DNA from: Sulfurihydrogenibium sp. YO3AOP1
GTDB lineage: Bacteria > Aquificota > Aquificia > Aquificales > Hydrogenothermaceae
Reading direction: 5' to 3'
Assembly: GCF_000020325.1 (NCBI RefSeq)
Contig: NC_010730.1
Coordinates: 951,501 to 1,015,500 of the forward strand
Length of the DNA: 64,000 nt
Notes under the pieces: generated by a model
What the model saw: the letters and a program-made list of their open reading frames with translations, nothing else
Databases searched by the model: none
What the model was told of the DNA's origin: nothing
Shown here: positions 4,637-52,330 of the stretch, piece by piece
How positions within the stretch are numbered: position 1 is the stretch's first letter
Layout: every line of letters starts with the position of its first letter
Position numbers and translations under genes: made by a program

Positions 4637-4703
4637 AATTTTGCTAAACTATTATATTAAATTGACGAAAAAGAGGTAAAAATCTTTACGGAGGGAATAT
4701 TTA

Positions 4704-5216
4704 ATGCGACCAAAGATTGAACCTAAACCAATTGAAAAGCCTGTCCCGTCTGACAAGTTTCTTGTATCTAAGACAGATACAAAAGGCATTATCACTTATG
4801 CAAATCCAATATTTATTGAAATTTCTGGATACACAGAGGATGAGTTAATCGGTGCAAATCATAACATTGTTAGACATCCAGATATGCCAAGGACTGTTTT
4901 TAAGCTTCTTTGGGATACTATACAGAAAGGAGATGAAATTTTTGCATATGTAAAAAACATGGCGAAAGATGGCAGTTATTACTGGGTGTTTGGACACGTG
5001 ACTCCAACCTTTGACAGCTCAGGAAAGATCATTGGTTATCAATCAGACAGAAGACCTGTTAGAAATAGAGAGTTTTTAAATGGTGTTATAATTCCATTAT
5101 ACCAAGAGCTAAAAAAAGAAGAGCAAAATGGACTGGATGCAGGAATGAGAAAGCTTGAAGAAACGCTTAATAAAGCTGGAATGTCTTATGAAGAATTCAT
5201 TTTTAAAAACTATTAA
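4704..5216 (+). CDS. PAS-domain redox/energy sensor (Aer/CetB-like, no MCP domain)
   Basis: This is a 170-residue soluble protein with one PAS domain over about residues 20-125. Features such as TDTKGIITYANPIF, GYTEDELIGANHNIVRHPDMP and DGSYYWVFGHVTP match the Aer-type FAD-binding PAS of aerotaxis receptors. No membrane or MCP signalling part is fused to it. A charged coiled tail follows. It stands directly upstream of a membrane MCP without a sensor domain, as in the Campylobacter CetB-CetA pair, so it is inferred to give redox input to that MCP. The start has a good site (CGGAGGG) ten bases upstream. FAD binding is not proven. Confidence 0.82.
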   Translation: MRPKIEPKPIEKPVPSDKFLVSKTDTKGIITYANPIFIEISGYTEDELIGANHNIVRHPDMPRTVFKLLWDTIQKGDEIFAYVKNMAKDGSYYWVFGHVTPTFDSSGKIIGYQSDRRPVRNREFLNGVIIPLYQELKKEEQNGLDAGMRKLEETLNKAGMSYEEFIFKNY

Positions 5217-5220
5217 AAAA

Positions 5221-5328
5221 GTGAGTAAGTGAGACGTAAGTAGGTGAGAAAGTGAAAGATGTATTTACATTATTAAGAAAAGTTTTTAACCACTTCCACT
5301 TATTCACTTTCTCGCTTACTCACTTCAC
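5221..5328. repeat. octamer-array inverted repeat 1 (GTGAGTAA family)
   Basis: The left arm (5221-5258) is a degenerate tandem array of the word GTGAGTAA. The right arm (5290-5328) is the complementary array (TTACTCAC), starting with CCACTTCCACTTA. They could fold into a long hairpin with a loop of about 30 nt, placed between the PAS gene stop and the AAAGGAGG ribosome site of the next MCP. The same design recurs at four further gaps of this cluster. Confidence 0.9.
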
Positions 5329-5343
5329 AAAAGGAGGTAAACA

Positions 5344-6795
5344 ATGACAACACACAAAGTTTCTTCGTTAACTAAAATACAGTATGCCAATATGCTGTCA
5401 ATAGGGATATTTACATTTGCTCTTGTAATTGAAGTTTACAAGCATGGATTTGATTTTATTAGAATCCTTAATATTATCAACTTCTTAACTGCTTGGTATA
5501 TATTTGTTAACATTAAAAAAGTTCAAGGGTTTGTAAGTAGGATAAGTAATGTTGTAAGCAAAGCAGAAAGGGGGGACCTTGAGTCAAGATTAGTAAAAGA
5601 AAAAGAAGGCGGTGAGCTTTTAAAACTTGCTTATGATGTGAATTATTTGTTAGACCAAGTGGATGCATTTTTAAGAGAAGTTCAGAGTCCATTAGAGTAT
5701 GCATCCAAGAGAAAATACTGGAGAAAGGTTATAACTGATGGCTTTACAGGTACGTTTAAATCAGTGGCTGAAAAGCTAAATGTTCCTTTGAAAGCCATAG
5801 AAAATAATGACAGATTTATAGAAAAAACAAAGATGATAGAAGAGCTTTCTCATTTAGGTGGTGGCATACAGGGTAATTTAAAAGTTATTTCAGAAGATTT
5901 AAATAAACTTGTAAGCAAACTTTCTTTAATTAAAGAAGAAAGTAAAAAAACTGTAGATATAGCAGTAGAAGGAAATAAAGAGATAGAAAAGATAGTTAAC
6001 GACTTGTCGCAGGTAATAAAAAATATTGAAGAGTCAAACAGAGTAATACAAAATTTAGCTAAGAAAACAGAAGATATTAGCGTTGTTGTTTCATTGATTA
6101 AAGATATAGCAGACCAAACAAACTTGCTCGCTTTAAACGCAGCAATAGAAGTGGCAAGAGCTGGAGAGATGGGAAGAGGCTTTGCAGTAGTTGCAGACGA
6201 AGTTAGAAAGCTTGCAGAAAGAACCCAAAAGGCAACAGAAGAAGTAACACAAGCAATAGCTGTACTTCAAGAAGAAAGCAAGAATACATTAGCCAAATCA
6301 GAAAAAATGGTAGAAATAACCCAAGCTTCAGCTAAATCAATCACAGGTATGACAGATATCTTAAAAGCTTTCCAAGATACAGCATTAAACAACGAAAAAT
6401 TAACAGAAATCATGGCAACTCAGGCATTCCTATCTTCTAAAAAATTAGACCATATAATATTTAAAAACAATGTTTACTCAAGCGTAACCCAAGAAAAAAT
6501 GACATTTAAATTTACAGACCATTATAATTGTGCGTTTGGCAAATGGTATTACGGCGATGGTGTTAAGGAATTTGATGGAATAACATCATTTAAAGAGATT
6601 GAAAAATATCATGCAAACTTCCACAATGCTTTATACAATATCGTCGAAATAATAGAAAATAATAAAGATATATTAAAACATAAAGAACTGATATTTAAAT
6701 CTTTTGAAACTGCTGAAAAAGAATCTCAAGAACTGTTTAAAGAAATGGATAAAGTTGCTGAAGAGAAAGCGAGAAGGCTTGGAATACAATTTTAG
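5344..6795 (+). CDS. membrane methyl-accepting chemotaxis protein with C-terminal CZB domain (CetA-like)
   Basis: This 483-residue receptor has two closely spaced membrane helices (about residues 13-31 and 38-56) with only a few residues between them, so it has no periplasmic sensor domain. A HAMP-like region follows (about 57-160), then the MCP signalling hairpin with the tip [20 protein letters not shown] near residue 258. A C-terminal CZB zinc-sensing domain follows ([14 protein letters not shown] and ...[11 protein letters not shown]). The pattern matches Aer/CetA receptors, which take input from a separate PAS protein; the PAS gene just upstream is the obvious partner. The tip has EVARAGE where EAARAGE is usual. 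A strong GGAGG site precedes the ATG. Confidence 0.88.
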
Positions 6796-6797
6796 AA

Positions 6798-6915
6798 GTG
6801 AGTAAGTGAATAGGTGAACAAGTGAGTAAGTGGAATTGGTTAGATAATTTTTTTATGTTAAAACCTTATCCACCGTCTCACTTACTCACGTCTCACTTAC
6901 TCACTTATTCACTAC
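6798..6915. repeat. octamer-array inverted repeat 2
   Basis: The left arm (6798-6833) is GTGAGTAA-type octamers starting two bases after the MCP stop. The right arm (6870-6915) is complementary TTACTCAC octamers. It is followed at once by CTCCGAAGGAGG, in which CTCC can pair with GGAG across a GAA loop and so cover the ribosome site of the next gene. Confidence 0.9.
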
Positions 6916-6932
6916 TCCGAAGGAGGTAAGCA

Positions 6933-8420
6933 ATGGGTTTATTTGGCGGATCAAACAAAGAAAGAGAAAGACAGCTTGAAGCACAGCTTGCTGAATGCCA
7001 AAAACAGCTACAAGAATTATCTAAGTTAGAAAAAGGCAGTGATGAGTACGAGGAAAAGTATCTTGAGTTTAAGCAGGCTTTAGACAATCTATCTGAAGAG
7101 GCTGTATTTTTTGCAACAGCAGAGTTTAGAGAAGGAAAAGCGGGCAATGAGATTGTTTATGTCAATAGAAAAGGAAAAGAGATTATAGACAAAATGTCGC
7201 AAGATATCAGGTCTAATTTTGGGATAGAAATCAATTCAAACAACATTATTGGGAAATCTATACATATCTTTCACAAAGACCCAGAAAGGATAAAACAGCT
7301 TTTAAAAGCTTTAAAGCCCGGAGAAGTAAAAAGAAATGCAGATATAAAAGTAGGAAACACTATTATTCAATCAGACAGGTCAGTGATTGCTGATAAAAAT
7401 GGAAATGTAAAATACTACATGACATCAATGAAAGATGTGACAGCCGAAAGATTGATAGAACAAAAAATTATACCTTTAAACGCAAAAAATACAGCGTTAG
7501 CAGTATACAACTCTGTAAAAACACTTATTAATCAAATCATTTTAGACATCTATATTCAAAACCAGCTTCAAAGCTTACTGAATGAAACACACGGTATTGT
7601 TAAAGAAGTAGAATCTTTAAAAGAGACTACAGCAGCAACTCAGAAAAAGATAAAAGATTCTGAAAATGTTTTAAATCTTATTTTGGAGATTTCTGAACAG
7701 ACAAACTTGTTATCATTAAACGCAGCGATTGAAGCGGCAAGAGCTGGAGAGATGGGAAGAGGTTTTGCAGTAGTTGCTGATGAAGTTAGAAAGCTTGCAG
7801 AAAGAACAGGAAAATCTACAGAAGATGTTAGAAAAATAATCTCGGCTGTAATATCAGAAGTATCTCAAACAGCAAACCTTGTAGACAAAGCAGTAGCCAG
7901 AATACTAAAAAATTCAGAAAACTTTGAAACATCTTCCAATGATTTAAAAAGATATGCAACAGAAATAGAAAATTCTTCAAAAAAAACATTCAACGAGCTT
8001 TTAGATTCATGGAATGTATTCAGAGAGTTGAAAGAAACAACAAAAAATGAAAATCTAAAGCTTTATATATATTTAATCGAAAAAATCATAGACCATGCTA
8101 AGTTTATGCTTAACATAGCTGAAGCAGTTGAAAGAAAAGAAATTATCAACGTTGTATCTCATCATGAATGTGATTTAGGTAAATGGTATTACTCTGTTGG
8201 TTCAAAAGAAATAACAATATGCGGAGCAGAAGGAGAAAGGTTATTTAGAGATATTGAAGCTCCACACAAAAATTTACACGATATAGGCAGACAAGTTATG
8301 GAAGCAATGAAAAGAGGAAACATGGACGAGCTTATACAACTGCTTAGCAAAATGTTAGAAGATAGCCAAAATATAATCAATGATTTAGTAAGATTGGGTG
8401 AAAGCTGTATTAGAACGTGA
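6933..8420 (+). CDS. cytoplasmic PAS-containing methyl-accepting chemotaxis protein with CZB domain
   Basis: This is a 495-residue receptor without membrane helices. Order of parts: a coiled N-terminus (about 1-45), a PAS domain (about 50-175, with [12 protein letters not shown] and [13 protein letters not shown]), a short helical connector, and the MCP hairpin with tip [20 protein letters not shown] near residue 255. A CZB domain follows ([15 protein letters not shown], then [13 protein letters not shown]), whose His/Cys residues are the expected zinc ligands. CZB-MCPs sense zinc or oxidants such as HOCl in other bacteria; here that is inference. It is the second of three receptor genes in the block. 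Confidence 0.88.
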
Positions 8421-8461
8421 AACGTTAAACGTTAAACGTTAAAAAAAATGGAGGTAAAGAA

Positions 8462-8719
8462 ATGGAAAACCAAGAAATTAATAAAAACGTAGAAGATATA
8501 AAGAGAATGGTAGATACAATAAAGAAGATAGCTAAGCAAAGCAACTTGCTTGCACTAAATGCAGCTATAGAAGCTGCAAGAGTTGGAGAGATGGGTAAAG
8601 GATTCTCCGTTGTAGCAAGTGAATTTAGAAAGTTAGCAGATGACACCAATAAAATAGCAACAGAAATAGCAATATTAATATCTAATTTGGAAGAAGAACT
8701 TAAAAACGTGAGTAGGTGA
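8462..8719 (+). CDS. stand-alone MCP signalling-tip protein (85 residues)
   Basis: The whole protein is one MCP hairpin: a helix of about 35 residues, the highly conserved tip ([19 protein letters not shown]), then [18 protein letters not shown] and a short return helix. Sensor, membrane, HAMP and adaptation helices are all absent. It has its own ATG and a GGAGG site nine bases upstream, and the sequence is clean, so it looks like a working small gene and not a decayed receptor. It could dock to CheW/CheA and act as an array filler, inhibitor or soluble activator; none of this is shown. The stop codon lies inside the octamer array that follows. Confidence 0.7.
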
Positions 8720-8891
8720 GGAAGTGAGTAGGTGAGTAAGTAAGTGAAGTGAGAAAATGAGTAGGTGGATAAGGATTTTTTAAAAATATGTTAAAACCAA
8801 TTTCACTATCTCACTTTCTCACTTATTCACTTATTCACTTTTTAAAAAACCACTTCCACTTACTCGCTTACTCACATCTCACTTACTCACT
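8708..8891. repeat. octamer-array inverted repeat 3 (longest)
   Basis: The left arm (8708-8774) begins within the last codons of the MCP-tip gene and supplies its TGA stop. The right arm (8801-8891) is a longer complementary array in two blocks, split by TTTAAAAAA. The CCACTTCCACTTA block seen in arrays 1, 4 and 5 is present near 8850. GGAGG for cheV follows at 8900. Confidence 0.9.
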
Positions 8892-8909
8892 TTAAAAAAG
8901 GAGGTTAAA

Positions 8910-9845
8910 ATGGAATACGGATTACCAGAAACCCTTAAGACAGGACAGAACGAATTAGAGATTATAGATTTTAGAATATTTGAGAGAAAAGAAGACGGCA
9001 GTATATACCAATGGATACTTGGGGTTAACGTTGCTAAAGTTAGGGAAGTTTTAAGAATGCCAAAGCTTACAAAAGTTCCTAATATGCCACCAGAGATTGA
9101 AGGAATGGCAGAAATCAGAGGAGAGCTTATTCCCGTTGTTAGTTTGGCAAAATGGATGAAGATTCCAGAAGAAGAAGAGTTTAAAAAATACTTGCTTTTT
9201 ATGGAGTTTTTGAGGGAAAAGGTAGGAGTGATAATTCACGCAGCAAAAAGAATAAGAAGAATTCAGTGGTCTGATATAAAAAAAGCACCTGATATTTTAA
9301 ATACAAGGTTAAATGGGAGAATTACAGGAGTAGTAGATACTGAAGAAGGATTATTATTAATATTAGACTTTGAAGGTATCTTGAATGATATGAACTTACT
9401 TACAGTGTTTAACGTAGGGCCAGACCAAGAAAGAAAAGCCAAAAAGAAATTAAGAATACTTGTTGCTGAAGACTCTGCCGTAGCAAGAAAAATAATAAAA
9501 GATATTTTAGAGAGTGCAGGGCATGAAGTAATAATGACAGAAAGTGGAAAGCAAGCATGGGAAAAGTTAAACGAAATTTTTGAAAAAGCTAAAGCAGAGG
9601 GAAAAAGTGTTAGAGATTACATTGACTTAGTACTAACTGATATTGAAATGCCAGAGATGGACGGTTTGACTTTAACAAACTTGATAAAGCATACAGCAGG
9701 ATTTTTAAATTTACCAGTAATTGTAAACACAACTTTATCCGATGAAGCAAACAAACAGAAAGCTTTTTCAGTTGGAGCTGATGATTATCTTGTTAAATTT
9801 GATGCATCTCATCTTATTGAGTTAGTGGATAAGGTAAGTGAGTAA
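8910..9845 (+). CDS. cheV: CheV: CheW-like adaptor fused to a receiver domain
   Basis: CheV couples receptors to CheA and is tuned by phosphorylation. The N-terminal ~165 residues form a CheW domain (VNVAKVREVLRMP, GMAEIRGELIPVVSLAKWM, ITGVVDTEEGLLLILDFE). Residues from about 176 form a receiver domain, with acidic residues in VAEDSAVARKII, the phospho-acceptor in DLVLTDIEMPEMDG, and a late lysine in GADDYLVKFDASHL. The length of 311 is normal for CheV. The last codons (AAG GTA AGT GAG TAA) are already part of the octamer repeat. No cheR or cheB is seen in the window, so CheV may provide part of the adaptation. Confidence 0.93.
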   Translation: MEYGLPETLKTGQNELEIIDFRIFERKEDGSIYQWILGVNVAKVREVLRMPKLTKVPNMPPEIEGMAEIRGELIPVVSLAKWMKIPEEEEFKKYLLFMEFLREKVGVIIHAAKRIRRIQWSDIKKAPDILNTRLNGRITGVVDTEEGLLLILDFEGILNDMNLLTVFNVGPDQERKAKKKLRILVAEDSAVARKIIKDILESAGHEVIMTESGKQAWEKLNEIFEKAKAEGKSVRDYIDLVLTDIEMPEMDGLTLTNLIKHTAGFLNLPVIVNTTLSDEANKQKAFSVGADDYLVKFDASHLIELVDKVSE

Positions 9846-9943
9846 GTGAATAAGTGAGTAAGTGAATAGGTAAAAAATAATATGAAATATAAAAAAACCA
9901 CTTCCACTTACTCACCTACTCACGTCTCACTTACTCACTTCTC
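9834..9943. repeat. octamer-array inverted repeat 4
   Basis: The left arm (9834-9871) overlaps the end of cheV and gives its TAA stop. The right arm (9898-9943) is the complementary array, beginning CCACTTCCACTTACTCACC. It leads into CTCCGAAGGAGG, the ribosome site of the next gene, which can fold as CTCC-GAA-GGAG. Confidence 0.9.
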
Positions 9944-9957
9944 CGAAGGAGGATAAA

Positions 9958-10314
9958 ATGAGAACGCATAAAGATTTAGATGTATGGAAAAATGGGGTAG
10001 AATTGGTTAAGAAAATATATGTAGCTACTTCAGATTTTCCAAAAGAAGAGATGTATGGTTTAACATCGCAAATAAGAAGAAGTGCTATATCTATTCCAAG
10101 CAATATAGCAGAAGGTTCAGCAAGGAATAGCACAAGGGAGTTTATACAATTTCTTTATTTTGCATTAGGTTCTACTGCAGAATTAGAGACGCAGTTATTA
10201 ATATCAAAAGACCTTGGCTATCTAAAAGACTTGAGTGTATTTAAAGACTTAGAGAAAATAAAAGTTCAGCTTGTAAACCTGATAAAATCATTAAAAAATA
10301 AAATAGGCGAATAA
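9958..10314 (+). CDS. four-helix-bundle protein (23S rRNA intervening-sequence / S23 family)
   Basis: This 118-residue protein fits the TIGR02436-type four-helix bundle family: DLDVWKNGVELVKKIY, PKEEMYGLTSQIRRSAISIP, SNIAEGSARNSTREFIQFLYFA and AELETQLLISKDLGYL are its usual landmarks. The family is widespread, often found beside mobile or intervening sequences, and has no firm function. Here it sits alone between two octamer hairpins in the chemotaxis block, with its own GGAGG site. This suggests either a cargo inserted with the repeats or a helper of the array proteins; context alone does not settle it. Confidence 0.85.
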   Translation: MRTHKDLDVWKNGVELVKKIYVATSDFPKEEMYGLTSQIRRSAISIPSNIAEGSARNSTREFIQFLYFALGSTAELETQLLISKDLGYLKDLSVFKDLEKIKVQLVNLIKSLKNKIGE

Positions 10315-10317
10315 TTG

Positions 10318-10450
10318 GAAGTGAGTAAGCGAGTAGGTGAGTAGGTGAGTGGGTGGGTGTGGTTTTTACATTAATAAAAAATAAAATATGTATCCAACCA
10401 CTTCCACTTATTCACTTATTCACTTACTCACTTATTCACTTATTCACTTC
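10318..10450. repeat. octamer-array inverted repeat 5
   Basis: The left arm (10318-10363) contains GTGAGTAAG and variants ending in GTGGGTGGGTG. The right arm (10397-10450) is complementary, with CCACTTCCACTTATTCAC repeated about six times. It ends at CTCCGAAGGAGG, the cheA ribosome site. A longer open frame runs through this array into cheA but is an artefact of the stop-free TTACTCAC arm. Confidence 0.9.
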
Positions 10451-10466
10451 TCCGAAGGAGGAAAAG

Positions 10467-12425
10467 ATGATACCCAATGAACTAAGAGAATTATTTGATG
10501 AGTTTCTTGTTGAAGCAAGAGAGCATCTTGAAAATTTAGAGAATAAACTTTTAGAGTTAGAAAAAGACCCAGATAATCCAGAGCTTTTGAATGCAGCTTT
10601 TAGAAGCATGCATACACTAAAAGGTGGTGCAGGATTCCTTGGACTAACTGCAATAGTTGAAACAGCACATAAAGCTGAGGATATTCTTGGTAAATTAAAA
10701 GAAGGGAAAATGAAATTCTCTCCTGAAATAGGAGATGTTCTACTAAAAGCAGTTGATTTTATTAAAGAAGCTCTTAGGTTTTATGAAGATGGAGAGTCAG
10801 TAGAACCAGATCCATATTTGATAGAAGAGTTAGAAGCAATTCTGGAAGGCAAAAAGTCAAAAGGCTATGTAGAAAGTGGCAAAGAAACGACTCTAGATAA
10901 ATTATTAAAAAAGTACAACTTGCATCATCTCATTGGTAAGCCAGTAGAAGAGATTTTAGAAGAGTTGGTGCTGCTGCCACCAAGTAAAAGACCGCAAGAA
11001 ATTGTAGATTATATAGATAAAATACTGTCGGGTGAGATTGTAGAGGAAGAAGATACATCATCTATCTTACCGATTTTAGAAGAAGAAGCAACAGAAAGAA
11101 TGCTTGAAATGATAGAAAAAGAAATAACACCAGAGGCTCAAAATAACCCTCCAGATACCAAAAAGGAAGTAAGCCAGGAAGGCCAGACTATTAATGCAGA
11201 AACAAAACCACAAGAGCAAAGAAAAGCACCAGCAAAGAAAGAGGAAGAAGAAAGAGTATTAAGAATAGACGTTCAAAAAATAGAAGACTTGATGAAGCTT
11301 GTTGGGGAGCTTGTTCTTGATAGAAATAGATTGATGAGAGTGGTTGGAGAAATAACTCAAAATATGCAACCTAACAAATACACAGAAGAGCTTGAAAGTG
11401 TTGCATCGTCAATAGATAAAATTGTCGGAGACCTACAACTTGCCGTAATGAAAACAAGAATGCAACCTGTAAAAAGACTATTCCAGAAATTTACAAGAGT
11501 TGTAAGAGACCTGTCAAAGGTTGTAGGAAAGGAAGTTGAGCTGATTATTATTGGCGAAGATACAGAAATGGACAAATCTATTTTAGAAAAGTTAGAAGAA
11601 CCTTTGGTTCACATCATCAGAAATGCATTAGACCATGGTATTGAACCACCAGAAGAAAGAAAAATACTTGGCAAACCACGTGTAGGTAAAATTATATTAA
11701 AAGCATATTATCAAGGAGATAGGGTATATATTGAAATTGAAGATGACGGAAGAGGTATAGACCCGCAAAAGGTGGCACAAAAAGCATTAGAAAAAGGATT
11801 AATCACAAAAGAACAGCTTGAAAAAATGACAGAAAAAGAAATACTTCAACTCGTATTCATACCAGGATTTTCAACCAAAGACCAAGTGTCTGAGATATCA
11901 GGTAGAGGCGTAGGTATGGATGCAGTTATGAATACAGTTTTAAACTTCAGAGGAACGATTGATATTTGGAGTGAGAAAGGTAAAGGAACAAAAATAAGTA
12001 TGGCATTTCCATTAACAGTTGGAATTATAAGGTCTTTACTTGTGAGCGTAAGTGGAAGAAGGTTTGCGATACCAATTTTCTTAGTGACCGAGATTATATC
12101 AGCAGAAAATGTAGACATCAAAAGATTATCAGGCAAAGACGTCTTAATTCTTAGAGAAAAAGCACTTCCACTTATAAATCTATATGAAATGCTAAAAATA
12201 CCACAATCCAACGTTGGCTATGTAATCGTTTGTCTAATCGGAAATCAAAGGGTAGCCTTTACAGTTGAAGATTTATTTGGCGATGAAGAAATAGTTGTAA
12301 AACCTCTTGGAAAGATTTTTGGAGACTTACACGGTATCTCTGGAGCAACTATAACAGGAGATGGAAAGATTGTGTTGATTCTTGATATTGTGGAATTATT
12401 GAAGAATAAAAATTTAAGGATGTAA
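10467..12425 (+). CDS. cheA: chemotaxis histidine kinase CheA
   Basis: CheA autophosphorylates and passes phosphate to CheY and CheV. The ATG at 10467 is chosen because it follows GAAGGAGG directly and opens with MIPNELRELFDEFL, a normal CheA start; an in-frame start at 10353 would translate the repeat array. Domains in the 652 residues: Hpt with H49 in SMHTLKGGAGF (about 1-110), a linker/P2-like region (to about 260), dimerisation helices (RIDVQKIEDLMKLVGELVLD), an HATPase domain with IIRNALDHGIEPPEER, EDDGRGID and GRGVGMDAV, and a C-terminal CheW-like P5 domain. It is followed by cheW 14 bp on. Confidence 0.95.
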   Translation: MIPNELRELFDEFLVEAREHLENLENKLLELEKDPDNPELLNAAFRSMHTLKGGAGFLGLTAIVETAHKAEDILGKLKEGKMKFSPEIGDVLLKAVDFIKEALRFYEDGESVEPDPYLIEELEAILEGKKSKGYVESGKETTLDKLLKKYNLHHLIGKPVEEILEELVLLPPSKRPQEIVDYIDKILSGEIVEEEDTSSILPILEEEATERMLEMIEKEITPEAQNNPPDTKKEVSQEGQTINAETKPQEQRKAPAKKEEEERVLRIDVQKIEDLMKLVGELVLDRNRLMRVVGEITQNMQPNKYTEELESVASSIDKIVGDLQLAVMKTRMQPVKRLFQKFTRVVRDLSKVVGKEVELIIIGEDTEMDKSILEKLEEPLVHIIRNALDHGIEPPEERKILGKPRVGKIILKAYYQGDRVYIEIEDDGRGIDPQKVAQKALEKGLITKEQLEKMTEKEILQLVFIPGFSTKDQVSEISGRGVGMDAVMNTVLNFRGTIDIWSEKGKGTKISMAFPLTVGIIRSLLVSVSGRRFAIPIFLVTEIISAENVDIKRLSGKDVLILREKALPLINLYEMLKIPQSNVGYVIVCLIGNQRVAFTVEDLFGDEEIVVKPLGKIFGDLHGISGATITGDGKIVLILDIVELLKNKNLRM

Positions 12426-12439
12426 ACGGAGGATTTATT

Positions 12440-12913
12440 ATGGAATTGGTAAAAGCAGGAAGTGTAAAACCAGCTGTATATGGTGGCCAGCAAATCAAAA
12501 TACTTGAATTTTTAGGCGTCAAAATTGAAGATGAATTTATAGGAATATCTTTAAAACATGTTCTTGAAATATCAAAAATTTTAGAGATATTTCCAGTTCC
12601 ATTATCTCCTCAGTATATAAAAGGGGTCATAAATCTTAGAGGTGAGATTTTGCCAGTCGTATCTATAAAAGAGATGATAGGAATACCAGAAAAAAAACAA
12701 TCAACAAGATTGATAATTTTAGAAACAAATTTAGATAAATTGGCTGTTATGGTTGATGAAGTTTATGGAGTTGTTAGAATTAGTGAAGATGTACTTGAAC
12801 CAAATCCTATGACCAGCATATACAGCGATTATATTTCCAACGTTGCTCAAACAAAACATGGATTTATTAGTATAATAGATTTAGATAAATTATTTCCTGC
12901 AGTAGAAGGATAG
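12440..12913 (+). CDS. cheW: chemotaxis adaptor CheW
   Basis: This 157-residue single-domain adaptor links receptors to CheA. It contains the typical FLGVKIEDEFIGISLKHVLEI, PLSPQYIKGVINLRGEILPVVSI and KLAVMVDEVYGVVRI strands. The N-terminus has about 20 extra residues before the fold. A GGAGG site lies eight bases before the ATG. Its TAG stop overlaps the GTG start proposed for the next gene by one base, which suggests translational coupling. Confidence 0.95.
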   Translation: MELVKAGSVKPAVYGGQQIKILEFLGVKIEDEFIGISLKHVLEISKILEIFPVPLSPQYIKGVINLRGEILPVVSIKEMIGIPEKKQSTRLIILETNLDKLAVMVDEVYGVVRISEDVLEPNPMTSIYSDYISNVAQTKHGFISIIDLDKLFPAVEG

Positions 12914-13392
12914 TGAGAAGCTTGTTTTTATATAAATTGTTAGAATTTATAAATGACAAGAGAATGGAACTATTTCAAAGCATGTTTTACAACTTGTATG
13001 AAAAATATGATAGGGATTCGGAAAAGTTTATTGAAGATTGGTTTGAAAAATACACTTACATAACTCTTAAAAGATTTTTTAAAGAAGATTTTTTTAAAGA
13101 AGATTTAGATTTGTTTTTCCAAAAAAATAAAAATGTTTTAAAAAGCTATGTAAAAGCATACTGGGCGTTTTGCAATAATCCAAATTCTAAGCCTTATTAT
13201 GTAAAAGAAGCGATGGATTATTTTGGTTTAAAAGAATTGAATATGAAAGAGTTAAAAAAGGTATATAGAGAAATGGTAAAAAAATACCATCCCGATGTTT
13301 ATCCAGATAAAAAAGAAGGAACGATGAAAACGATTGAGATAAACCATTATTATCAAATTTTAAAAACATATATAGAAAAACTGGGAGGCTAA
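12913..13392 (+). CDS. J-domain (DnaJ-like) protein in the chemotaxis operon
   Basis: This 159-residue protein ends in a J-domain. The HPD signature sits in VYREMVKKYHPDVYPDKKEG near residue 138, followed by the helix NHYYQILKTYIEKL. The first ~100 residues are rich in Lys, Asp and Phe, look all-helical and match nothing I recognise. The J-domain implies it can stimulate an Hsp70 ATPase. It lies between cheW and cheZ, overlapping the former and two bases from the latter. The start is uncertain: GTG at 12913 overlaps the cheW stop, and an ATG at 12964 is also possible. Confidence 0.68.
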   Translation: MRSLFLYKLLEFINDKRMELFQSMFYNLYEKYDRDSEKFIEDWFEKYTYITLKRFFKEDFFKEDLDLFFQKNKNVLKSYVKAYWAFCNNPNSKPYYVKEAMDYFGLKELNMKELKKVYREMVKKYHPDVYPDKKEGTMKTIEINHYYQILKTYIEKLGG

Positions 13393-13393
13393 G

Positions 13394-13954
13394 ATGGAAG
13401 ATTTAAAGCAAGTGATAAGAACAATCCTTGAAGAAGTCAAAACTTTAGAAGAGAAGATAGATGAAACAACAAGAAAGGCTCGAGAAATTACACAGATAGT
13501 AGAACCATCAGCAACAGAAAGCTTAAAAGAGGTTATTAAATTTACAGAAGAAAGCTCCAATAAGATTATCTCAGAAATTGATAAAGTTGAAGAAAATTGT
13601 AAAATTATTGATAAAGAAGTATCAGAACTTTTAGCATTAAATCCTATAAACAGTATAAAAGAAAAACTCAGCACAATCAAAGAAAAAAATACAGAAAATA
13701 TCAATATATTAATTAAAGTTTATGAGCTTTTCTCTTTCCAAGATTTATCTTCACAACAAATTAAAGAAGTTATAAATATTCTCGAAGAAACCAAAAAACA
13801 CTTATTAGGAATAGCTGTGGCATCAATAGAGGCATCAGGGGAGCTTTCTAAAGAACAGAAAGAGGTAATATCAGGTAAGGTGCATGAATTTCTAACTGGA
13901 GATAGAATTTTCCAAGAAGAAGTTGATAAATTATTAGAAGAGTTAGGACTATAA
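13394..13954 (+). CDS. cheZ: CheZ-family CheY-P phosphatase (divergent)
   Basis: This is an almost purely helical, coiled-coil protein of 186 residues. Near residue 117 it has FQDLSSQQIKEVINIL, which matches the CheZ active-site helix FQDLTGQxIKR; D117 and Q121 would be the catalytic DxxxQ pair. The C-terminus (VDKLLEELGL) resembles the short CheY-binding tail of CheZ. It directly precedes cheY by 13 bp. CheZ is expected to dephosphorylate CheY-P. Overall identity to proteobacterial CheZ looks low, so the call rests on the motif, the fold and the position. Confidence 0.75.
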   Translation: MEDLKQVIRTILEEVKTLEEKIDETTRKAREITQIVEPSATESLKEVIKFTEESSNKIISEIDKVEENCKIIDKEVSELLALNPINSIKEKLSTIKEKNTENINILIKVYELFSFQDLSSQQIKEVINILEETKKHLLGIAVASIEASGELSKEQKEVISGKVHEFLTGDRIFQEEVDKLLEELGL

Positions 13955-13967
13955 AAGGAGGTATATA

Positions 13968-14360
13968 ATGGGATTTCCAGTGGCATCAAGAATTTTAACA
14001 GTTGATGATATGGCAACAATGAGAAAAATTATAAAGAGTTTATTAAATCAACTTGGTTATACAAATATAGATGAAGCAGAAAATGGTAAAGAGGCTTTAG
14101 CAAAATTAAAACAAAGTAAATATGACCTTGTTTTACTTGATTGGAACATGCCAGAAATGGATGGGATAACACTTCTACAAGAAATAAGAAAAGACACGCA
14201 TCTAAAAGATATTCCAGTAATAATGGTAACAGCAGAAGCAAAAAAGGAAAACGTACTAATAGCTATACAATCAGGAGCTAATAACTATATAGTTAAGCCT
14301 TTTACAGCTGAAACACTAAAAGAAAAATTAGAAAAAGTATGGCAACAGATAAATGGTTAA
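13968..14360 (+). CDS. cheY: chemotaxis response regulator CheY
   Basis: This is a single receiver domain of 130 residues. It has the acidic pocket D13-D14, phospho-acceptor D58 in DLVLLDWNMPEMDG, the Thr in VIMVTAEA, and the Lys in NNYIVKPFTAE. It carries the chemotaxis output to the flagellar switch. It is the last gene of the block and has an AGGAGG site. No flagellar genes are present in the window. Confidence 0.95.
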   Translation: MGFPVASRILTVDDMATMRKIIKSLLNQLGYTNIDEAENGKEALAKLKQSKYDLVLLDWNMPEMDGITLLQEIRKDTHLKDIPVIMVTAEAKKENVLIAIQSGANNYIVKPFTAETLKEKLEKVWQQING

Positions 14361-14470
14361 AGTAGTGAAGGGTGTGGTATAGTGATGAGTGGTGAACGTG
14401 TCTTAATAAAAGATTTTAACGCTTCATGCGTCACACATCACTTTTTCATAACACATCTCGCTTTAAACTA
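14361..14470. repeat. GTGATG-rich imperfect inverted repeat after cheY
   Basis: AAAGTAGTGAAGGGTGTGG and GTGATGAGTGGTG (left) face CATCACTTTTTCATAACAC and AAACTACTTTA (right), so the segment can fold back on itself. It is built of GTGATG-like words related to, but distinct from, the octamer arrays upstream. It may act as a transcript end for the chemotaxis block. There is no clear U-tract, so I do not call a terminator. Confidence 0.5.
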
Positions 14471-14540
14471 CTTTATTCGTCATCCTGAAGACTTTAGTCC
14501 AAAGAAGCTTCTCTTTTAAAGAAGGTGAGTAAGTGAGTAG

Positions 14541-14560
14541 AGGCAATTCATGAATTGCCT
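14541..14560. repeat. 20-bp perfect palindrome AGGCAATTCATGAATTGCCT
   Basis: The sequence is fully self-complementary. The core GGCAATTCATGAATTGCC recurs at 16543-16562, extended to GGGC...GCCC, and imperfectly at 60919-60938. At two of the three sites it is followed by ATACAGTAAATAAGTGA. Octamer-like GTGAGTAAG precedes this copy at 14525. Confidence 0.8.
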
Positions 14561-14700
14561 ATACAGTAAATAAGTGAGAGGTAAAAAGGCGGAGATCCTT
14601 CGCCGCCTTCAGAATAACGCATCATTAACTTTCTTTGTCATCCTGATAGAAGTGAAGGATCTATTTTTTAAGCTTTATAAAATTTCTTAATTTCTCACCA

Positions 14701-26047: not shown

Positions 26048-26773
26048 TGTATAAGCTAAAAGAAATATGGGAAAACATAATATAAGAATTTAAAATTATG
26101 AAAATCGGGGGATAAAGATGAGAAAGAGAATAGGAACATCTACCTACATTCAGAGAATTAATACACTTGAAAGAAAGCTTTTAAAACAAGTAAAAGAATT
26201 AGATGATGTTATGGAAAAACATCCAGAAATAATCTTTAGATTGCAAGTTGTAGAGTTTGCTTTAAAACATTCAGTGAAGATTGCAGTTGAAGCTTTTGGT
26301 GTATCAAAATCTACCATATACAGATGGATTAAAGAGTATAAAAGCAGTAATAACAATCTCGTATCTCTTAAAAATCGTTATATATCAAAAAAAGGAATGA
26401 AATTAGAAAAATTACAAAAAATAACAGAAAAACATAAACAATTAGTTTTAGAAATAAGAAAGAAACATCCTAAGCTTGGGAAAGAAAAAATAAAGGTTTT
26501 ACTTGATAAACTCTGCAAGCAGCACAATATTCCTACGATATCTGCAAGTTCAATTGGAAATATAATAAAAATGCTTAAAGAGGAAAGGAAGTTAAATCAT
26601 GAGTACGCCAGGCAAAGAATCACAATCAACGGAAGAACTGGAAAGCTAACAATAAAAGAAAGTAGAAAGAAAACAAAGAAAGATAGATATAAAGACAAAA
26701 AACCAACAAAACCAGGAGAATTGGTACAAATAGATACAAAGCATGAATATGTAAATGGTAGAAAAGTTTATAT
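26048..26773 (+). mobile_element. rve-type IS (IS481-like), 5' part only
   Basis: It begins TGTATAAGCTAAAAG, the same left end as the copy at 51605, and is cut by an IS256-type end after ...GAAAAGTTTATAT. It is almost identical to 51605-52330. Together with the following IS256 copy it forms a 2.02-kb block repeated in direct orientation at 51605-53629. Confidence 0.82.
26118..26773 (+). pseudogene. rve-superfamily transposase, C-terminally truncated by IS256
   Basis: About 219 true residues remain: an N-terminal helix-turn-helix region (VKIAVEAFGVSKSTIYRWIKEYKS), a second DNA-binding part (KHPKLGKEKIKVLLDKL), and the start of the DDE core (PGELVQIDTKHEYVNGRKVYI with the first Asp). The frame then runs into IS256 sequence (LRLVNNFVSGLKTFY) and stops. 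The missing catalytic part can be read at 53662-54192. The start follows CGGGGGATAAAG. Confidence 0.82.
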
Positions 26774-31729: not shown

Positions 31730-31925
31730 GGTTTAAGATTTTGAAATACTAACTTTTACTTGACCGTTTGACCACTGTCTATTCTTTGCTAATTTTAGAA
31801 AGTTTCAACTTCTCATAGACAAAACGGAAATGTGACGGGTGATGAGGGATGTGTGATGTGTAGAAAAACTTTATCAACGTATTATCTCTAACTTCTCACT
31901 ATCTCACCTACTCACTTTCTCACTC
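31730..31925. repeat. GTGA-rich repeat region at the ribD/pdxA junction
   Basis: The gap between the convergent ribD and pdxA holds GTGACGGGTGATGAGGGATG and GTGATGTGTAG (about 31834-31862), then an octamer array in the TTACTCAC orientation (about 31889-31925). The latter overlaps the last codons of pdxA. No terminator or gene is evident. Confidence 0.7.
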
Positions 31926-32880
31926 TCTTCAACAAAATAGCCAGCTCAACAGCTTCTATTGTAGATGATGGGTCTGCTATGTTTTTGCCTGCAATATCAT
32001 AACCTGTTCCATGGTCAGGAGATGTTCTTATAAAAGGAAGTCCAAGAGTTATATTTACAGCTTTTCTAAAACAAAGAAGTTTTAAAGGAATCAGTCCTTG
32101 GTCGTGATACATTGCAACATAAATATCAAAATCTTTGTATCTATTAAACGCAGTATCGGGAGATAACGGGTCTGTTATCTCAATACCATCTTCTCTCAAT
32201 GTTTTTACAGCCGGAAGAATTATATTTTGCTCTTCATTGCCTATATTTCCATTGTCAGATGCATGGGGATTTAGCCCAAGAATTGCAATTTTTGGCTTAG
32301 AAATGCCAAACTTTTCTTTAAACTCTCTGTTTATAAGTCTTACTTTTGAAATTATCTTTTCCTTGGTAATTTGACTTGGAACATCTTTTAGTGGAATATG
32401 GGTTGTAATGAGGGCTACTTTTAACTTTTTACACATTAAGACCATTGCATACTCTTTAGCACCGCTTACTTCTGCTAAATAATCTGTGTGTCCTGCATAA
32501 GGAAAACCACTTTCCATAATCCATTGCTTGGAAATAGGAAGAGTAATCAAAGCATCTGCTTTCTTTTCTAAAACATCTTTAACTGCATTTTCAAGATAAA
32601 CAACAGAAGCTTTTCCGGTTTCTTTAGAAGAGCTTCCAAATTCAACATCTAAATCATAAAGATTTATAAGATATATTCCGGATTTTACAACGTCATTTAT
32701 AGATTTTATCTCTTTTATGTTTAAATCTACGCCTGTTAGTTTTTTTGCCTTTTCTAAAGCTTTTTTTGAGCCGTAGATGACATATGAAATGTTTCTTTTT
32801 GGAAGTTTATTTAAAGCTTTAAGAAGAATTTCTGAATTTATTCCTGATGGGTCACCAAGAGTGATAGCAAGTTTTACCAA
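31912..32880 (-). CDS. pdxA: 4-hydroxythreonine-4-phosphate dehydrogenase PdxA
   Basis: PdxA makes the aminoketone used by PdxJ for pyridoxine phosphate. Landmarks are [42 protein letters not shown], metal ligands in TTHIPLKDV and [14 protein letters not shown], and [18 protein letters not shown] start overlapping the dsrH-like stop is used. The final codons (AGA GTG AGA AAG TGA) are made of the octamer repeat. It closes an operon of sulfur-relay genes, an unusual partnership. Confidence 0.95.
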
Positions 32881-51674: not shown

Positions 51675-52330
51675 ATGAGAAAGAGAATAGGAGCATCTAC
51701 CTACATTCAGAGAATTAATACACTTGAAAGAAAGCTTTTAAAACAAGTAAAAGAATTAGATGATGTTATGGAAAAACATCCAGAAATAATCTTTAGATTG
51801 CAAGTTGTAGAGTTTGCTTTAAAACATTCAGTGAAGATTGCAGTTGAAGCTTTTGGTGTATCAAAATCTACCATATACAGATGGATTAAAGAGTATAAAA
51901 GCAGTAATAACAATCTCGTATCTCTTAAAAATCGTTATATATCAAAAAAAGGAATGAAATTAGAAAAATTACAAAAAATAACAGAAAAACATAAACAATT
52001 AGTTTTAGAAATAAGAAAGAAACATCCTAAGCTTGGGAAAGAAAAAATAAAGGTTTTACTTGATAAACTCTGCAAGCAGCACAATATTCCTACGATATCT
52101 GCAAGTTCAATTGGAAATATAATAAAAATGCTTAAAGAGGAAAGGAAGTTAAATCATGAGTACGCCAGGCAAAGAATCTCAATCAACGGAAGAACTGGAA
52201 AGCTAACAATAAAAGAAAGTAGAAAGAAAACAAAGAAAGATAGATATAAAGACAAAAAACCAACAAAACCAGGAGAATTGGTACAAATAGATACAAAGCA
52301 TGAATATGTAAATGGTAGAAAAGTTTATAT
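51675..52330 (+). pseudogene. rve-superfamily transposase, 5' part, second copy
   Basis: It is nearly identical to 26118-26773, with few base changes (for example Ala for Thr at residue 7). The IS256 junction falls at the same base after GRKVYI. It contains the helix-turn-helix and the first catalytic Asp only. Confidence 0.82.

Follow-up and report, generated by a model that had tools for sequence, protein, structure and literature searches.

Inverted octamer arrays at gene junctions of a Sulfurihydrogenibium chemotaxis cluster and their association with the intervening-sequence protein gene

Long hairpins built of tandem octamers stand between consecutive chemotaxis genes of Sulfurihydrogenibium sp. 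YO3AOP1, and the locus raises the question of what these hairpins are and where they come from. We analyzed a window of 64,000 nucleotides (G000:C1:951501-1015500; positions below are counted from its first letter) of this genome, a single contig of 1,838,442 bp referred to as G000. The hairpins had been noted in an earlier, sequence-only reading; a four-helix-bundle gene lying between two of them was mentioned there, but it was not recognized as the informative part of the locus. This gene encodes the protein known from 23S rRNA intervening sequences (IVS), here called the IVS protein (IVP). With moderate confidence, we interpret the five hairpins as copies, devoid of an open reading frame (ORF), of a small insertion element that is related to the 23S rRNA IVS and whose full form carries IVP.

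Array hairpins in the chemotaxis cluster

The cluster contains, in this order, a PAS gene, receptor 1, receptor 2, a small ORF resembling methyl-accepting chemotaxis proteins (MCP-like), cheV (encoding CheW plus receiver domain), the IVP gene, cheA and a cheW-like gene, followed by a DnaJ-like ORF, a cheZ-like gene and a gene for a receiver protein (the DnaJ-like and receiver names are read from the translations). Two-armed inverted octamer arrays of the GTGAGTAA type fill five of its junctions between positions 5219 and 10441:

5219..5325, plus strand: array hairpin 1, PAS gene / receptor 1 junction (RNA fold z -5.3)
5290..5302, also at 8850, 9898 and 10398, plus strand: CCACTTCCACTTA block, inner right arm
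6797..6913, plus strand: array hairpin 2, receptor 1 / receptor 2 junction (RNA fold z -8.4)
6915..6926, also 9941-9952 and 10450-10461, plus strand: CTCCGAAGGAGG, Shine-Dalgarno mini-hairpin at the right edge
8414..8443, plus strand: AACGTTA heptamer array 3' of receptor 2, of the kind found in sister strains (orthologous array in G005)
8708..8890, plus strand: array hairpin 3, small MCP-like ORF / cheV junction (RNA fold z -9.8)
9837..9939, plus strand: array hairpin 4, cheV / IVP junction (RNA fold z -8.3)
9958..10314, plus strand: IVP / four-helix-bundle gene, 118 aa, between hairpins 4 and 5 (PF05635, TIGR02436)
10319..10441, plus strand: array hairpin 5, IVP / cheA junction (RNA fold z -11.4)

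The existence of five hairpins, as first reported, is borne out by their coordinates, by RNA folds with z between -5.3 and -11.4 that no shuffled sequence equaled, and by 51 array motifs in the window versus 1.4 in Markov sequences. The CCACTTCCACTTA block is kept in four of them, as had been stated, and is missing from hairpin 2. One junction had been misplaced. Downstream of the second large receptor, the gap (8421-8461) contains the AACGTTA heptamer array and no octamer hairpin. Hairpin 3, which is compound and has two right arms, is preceded by a separate MCP-like ORF of 85 aa; the end of this ORF extends into the array.

Owing to the unit sequence itself, the GTGAGTAA-type left arm often has stops in all three frames and terminates the upstream gene, and the TTACTCAC-type right arm is free of stops. 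The stop codon of cheV, for example, is supplied by the array of hairpin 4. Three of the five hairpins end in CTCCGAAGGAGG, a small hairpin containing the Shine-Dalgarno sequence of the next gene, which is also found at a pilT-like junction elsewhere in the genome (see below).

Intrinsic terminators (a GC-rich stem followed by a T-run) were considered and rejected, as a scan of the plus strand at 4700-14700, covering loops of 3-8 nt and complemented by inspection of the right arms by eye, gave no terminator-like T-run site. The Rfam search of the hairpins returned no family at the gathering score; the only hits, far below it, were plant and animal microRNA models, which are explained by the bare hairpin shape.

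The IVP gene and arrays in its flanks

The ORF at 9958-10314 matches PF05635 with E = 8e-37; this family and TIGR02436 describe the protein encoded within 23S rRNA IVSs. Its solved relatives, 2gsc and 2rld, have five chains each. The Avd protein of diversity-generating retroelements belongs to a related family, and two of five IVPs match the Avd model weakly, below the cut-off. IVP genes are widespread 'hypothetical' genes for which, to our knowledge, no function has been settled, and we know of no route by which rRNA intervening sequences move.

IVP is present in only 5 of 136 Aquificota genomes, and no counterpart of the window copy was found in the six remaining genomes of the genus. The flanks of all five Aquificota copies that were read contain short arrays on both sides, and the unit differs in almost all of them. 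The second G000 copy (684.6-685.1 kb) is flanked by cas6 and a Cas_CXXC_CXXC gene and is preceded by an ACGTGAA-type heptamer hairpin; its downstream array is translated into the N-terminus of the next protein (SHVSPLTSHVSR).

A broader set of 80 loci was drawn from GTDB genomes by protein similarity alone; it spans many bacterial phyla, includes two archaeal records, and is biased to Bacteroidota and relatives of the window copy. Flanks were analyzed for 83 loci (79 GTDB loci and 4 Aquificota copies, excluding the window copy) using shuffles and distant stretches as controls, which cover chance and local composition and not a preference of IVP for array-rich genomes. Flank arrays exceeded the 95th shuffle percentile in 68 of the 83 loci (82%) and the 99th in 50 (Mann-Whitney U test, p = 2e-47). 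The best period was 7, 8 or 14 in 149 of 166 flanks (90%) versus 22% in shuffles, and among pairs in which both flanks had a period of 7 or 8, the upstream and downstream values agreed by 45 to 4. The two flanks are inversely related: alignment of the upstream flank with the complement of the downstream one gave a median Smith-Waterman score of 19, compared with 9 for mismatched loci and 10 in the direct orientation, and the unit similarity of the downstream flank to the complement of the upstream one was 0.76 against 0.51. The units have a common GT[GAT]A core plus 3 or 4 variable bases, above a column-shuffled null. A TRAP-like register, with five units per array and one per IVP subunit, is not claimed: the median is 5, but the spread is broad and biased by the threshold.

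Within 300 nt of IVP, arrays number 15 per 10 kb; their density drops to about 1 at distances of 0.3-4 kb and to 0.08 in distant stretches, which were taken from 15 of the IVP-bearing genomes. Beyond 500 nt from any IVP-like ORF it is still 0.92 per 10 kb, and therefore ORF-less arrays loosely cluster near IVP genes, as in the window. Arrays far from IVP are closer to the IVP arrays of their own locus than to those of other loci.

IVP elements are placed mainly at operon junctions. Neighboring genes are co-oriented with IVP in 71 of 77 cases upstream and 67 of 76 downstream, against a background of 139 of 189, and among the junctions are groES/groEL, sdhA/sdhB, cysD/cysN, guaB/guaA and a split metH (names read from protein ends). 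In four Flavobacteriia-type records, the element lies between two parts of metH that look like its homocysteine and pterin domains; in E. coli both belong to one protein. The 16 IVP-bearing genomes checked have 1-16 copies each, and sometimes several IVP genes are clustered within 10 kb (G151:C126, G136:C1, G148:C18 and others).

Comparison with related genomes

Within the genus, array positions are shared between strains and the repeat unit is not, the two types of unit being GTGARTAR (8 nt) and ACGTNNA (7 nt). A comparison of the junction gaps between strains, suggested in the sequence-only reading, showed that in relatives the arrays are absent or built of the 7-nt unit. At junction 1, ACGTGAA/ACGTTAA heptamer arrays of ~45 nt are found in G005, whose flanking genes are 95-98% identical, and in G002 (the G005 genome is fragmented and 82% complete, that of G002 is 100% complete). 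Junction 2 has a heptamer array in G005 and none in G004, and at junction 3 only a short one-armed (left) array is present in G005. The block of hairpin 4, IVP and hairpin 5 is wholly absent in G005, and hairpins 4 and 5 are also absent in G004 and G006, where the genes at the cluster's junctions abut or overlap with no array between them. Outside the cluster, G004 and G001 lack the fliD hairpin, and G006 lacks the pilT-like one.

The specific link to chemotaxis that had been proposed is not supported, since relatives keep the gene order without the hairpins, and the same elements occur in flagellar, pilus and nucleotide-metabolism genes.

In-frame insertions in ribonucleotide reductase

Two hairpin arrays are inserted in frame in the ribonucleotide reductase ORF of G000, where they are translated as VERETSDVKREELSPNEKNTSHLLTYSPTHS and VSKRESEKVKSEELNPNEKTPTHLLTYSPTHP. 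Insert 2 is absent from every relative read, and insert 1 from all of them except G005. The G005 copy occupies the same codon position and resembles that of G000 in its loop, but its right arm is heptameric (ACGTCTC) versus octamers in G000. The octamer arm has 26 exact bases in common with window hairpin 2. One arm of insert 1 has been rewritten in place, with retention of the loop and of the reading frame; such a replacement of units within an essential gene, at an insertion whose site has not moved, is a clear natural case of rapid array rewriting. The loops of inserts 1 and 2 are similar and their arms differ; insert 2 still folds (z = -5.2). Together with the heptamer arrays at the junctions of close strains, the rewritten arm supports the earlier suggestion that arrays exchange units. 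As to the other earlier suggestion, selection as RNA or DNA structures, the very stable folds of the intercistronic hairpins would agree with it, and the poorly matching arms of insert 1 would not.

Arrays elsewhere in the genome

The genome-wide search for GTGARTAR arrays gave 101 matches to GTGARTARGTGARTAR with at most one mismatch, in about 60 places, versus 26 for the reversed control. Two-armed hairpins outside the cluster are few, namely one at the flaG/fliD junction, one at the junction of a T2SSE ATPase gene and the pilT-like gene and two in the ribonucleotide reductase gene, as detected by exact 12-15-nt matches, by which more diverged hairpins may be missed. The claimed concentration in the chemotaxis cluster is therefore real for two-armed hairpins; as to arrays in general, it does not hold. 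Seven 20-kb stretches elsewhere in G000 contain no array at a stricter threshold.

Two smaller copies had also been reported in the window, at pdxA and near 14525. The former has a single arm, and the latter is the center of a different dispersed repeat, termed here type A:

14478..14617, no strand assigned: type A dispersed palindromic repeat copy with GTGAGTAA units in its center, in a context unlike that of the hairpins
31894..31928, minus strand: octamer array with a single arm at the pdxA 3' end, where it provides the stop codon of the gene

The near-palindromic type A repeat consists of GTCATCCTGAGG..CGAAGGATCTCC, GTGA units and GGAGATTCTTCGC..CAGAATGAC; it occurs in the window at 14478-14617 and ~929-1051, and in tens of places in G000. 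It is possibly a separate family similar to miniature inverted-repeat transposable elements (MITEs); a search by sequence text gave no match. A smaller palindrome, GGCAATTCATGAATTGCC or near variants, lies inside or beside the GTGA runs of type A, as if nested, at five loci and at ~14540-14570 of the window. Tandem repeats with the identical consensus AAAGAAAGATAGAAAGAAAGAC are located at 26655-26699 and 52212-52256 of the window, 25.5 kb apart, and are possibly parts of a duplicated element.

Proposed element and alternative explanations

According to the interpretation that we favor, the full-length element would consist of an array of GTNA-N3/4 units, an IVP gene and a complementary array, and would be found between co-transcribed genes, mainly at stop/start junctions. 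Its two arms would pair into a long stem in the transcript; the left arm would close the upstream gene, and the open right arm followed by a Shine-Dalgarno sequence would restart translation, so that the insert could be carried with little harm. Array units would be replaced faster than the flanking genes mutate, either by exchange between arrays within the genome, presumably through ectopic conversion, or by some templated process, so that genomes tend to have a 'dialect' of units of their own. IVP, a probable pentamer, may bind the arrays or help to spread them, and the stems may be cut by RNase III as in rRNA IVSs.

A wider claim can be offered only tentatively: IVP genes outside rRNA may represent the coding part of a widespread intercistronic mobile element with rewritable ends formed by 7-8-nt arrays, whose IVP ring recognizes GTNA units and helps to generate, spread or exchange arrays, including ORF-less hairpins nearby and inside genes.

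Several observations weigh against our interpretation. Most octamer runs in G000 are stretches of 2-4 units in the middle of the ~120-140-nt type A repeat. The arms of insert 1 no longer match well (RNA fold z = -1.1), and thus the hairpin is not strictly maintained; no target-site duplication was seen at either of the two coding insertions. Fifteen of the 83 IVP loci have no significant array at the 95th percentile. The main tension comes from G002 and G005, which carry arrays although no IVP gene was detected in them; arrays therefore persist without IVP, and either these genomes have lost the gene or arrays do not require it. Finally, random stretches of IVP-positive Aquificota genomes are almost array-free, with no excess at the stricter threshold, which argues against genome-wide spreading of arrays by IVP in those Aquificota.

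The arrays of G002 and G005 would fit a different origin, which we regard as rather unlikely: host intergenic repeats of the TAACTGA type, which slippage and ectopic conversion would generate and operon junctions would tolerate, with IVP genes as hitchhikers that insert in or near them. This origin would also suit the 29 loci with arrays well away from any IVP-like ORF, and TAACTGA repeats were reported without a linked gene (PMC4679880). However, arrays are ~190 times as dense near IVP as in distant regions, and IVP flanks tend to share both period and unit inversely, which would not result from insertion into a single direct array.

The hairpins could instead act as cis-regulatory RNA in the chemotaxis operon, adjusting gene dosage via mRNA processing, stabilization or attenuation between cistrons. 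Their very stable folds, consistent position between the stop codon and the Shine-Dalgarno sequence, common CTCCGAAGGAGG hairpin and several sites in motility genes are in line with such a role, but it is made improbable by the same junctions without hairpins in relatives, by the same elements inside the ribonucleotide reductase gene, and by the negative terminator and Rfam results given above. Mobilization of MITEs or repetitive extragenic palindromic (REP)-like elements by a transposase encoded elsewhere in the genome, with IVP as an incidental passenger, would agree with the palindromic, dispersed, mostly intergenic copies, with those in frame in coding sequence and with the presence of the same units in the type A repeat, but is highly improbable given that no fixed terminal inverted repeat or target duplication was seen and that unit sequence varies by site and strain while position and loop are kept.

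Comparison with known systems and implications

The closest known counterparts of the proposed element are the 23S rRNA IVSs of Coxiella, Leptospira and others. As in those, a PF05635 ORF is present in the window block (the ORF-less hairpins lack it by definition), and complementary ends around the ORF occur in the IVP family as a whole, with a full hairpin on each side of the window copy. The Coxiella IVS has tandem GACAGAT heptamers directly before the IVP start codon, in strain-dependent copy number, and RNase III cleaves this IVS in vitro (PMC4990558); heptamer repeats 5' of the ORF are thus a common feature. Unlike the 23S rRNA IVSs, which reside in helix 25 or 45, the window copy lies between cheV and cheA and others lie at protein-gene junctions or inside genes; most window copies are ORF-less, and the arms consist of tandem arrays, with a unit that differs from genome to genome.

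TAACTGA repeats are intergenic direct repeats described in Beggiatoaceae, Cyanobacteria and Bacteroidetes (MacGregor 2015, PMC4679880). They resemble our arrays in being short tandem arrays at junctions just 5' of start codons, with stop codons inside, and in their patchy distribution, being missing in some close relatives; in contrast to that single, directly repeated unit, the arrays described here comprise many 7-mer and 8-mer sequences, often form inverted pairs and are linked to IVP. Rickettsia palindromic elements are likewise palindromic, inserted in frame in a protein gene, open, and absent in relatives (cf. review PMC10969869), but have a conserved sequence and a conserved peptide, whereas the arms here are variable tandem arrays. 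MITEs and REP elements or bacterial interspersed mosaic elements (REP-BIME) are also small, palindromic, mostly non-coding and dispersed; fixed ends, target duplication and an identified transposase are not seen here.

We found no description of the IVP-array link in the literature searched, which left most subscription journals outside and gives no proof of novelty. This link could connect scattered reports of odd intergenic heptamer repeats. If array-framed IVP at operon junctions is the general form of the element, the rRNA cases would be one special case of it, and IVP would gain a concrete candidate for its binding target.

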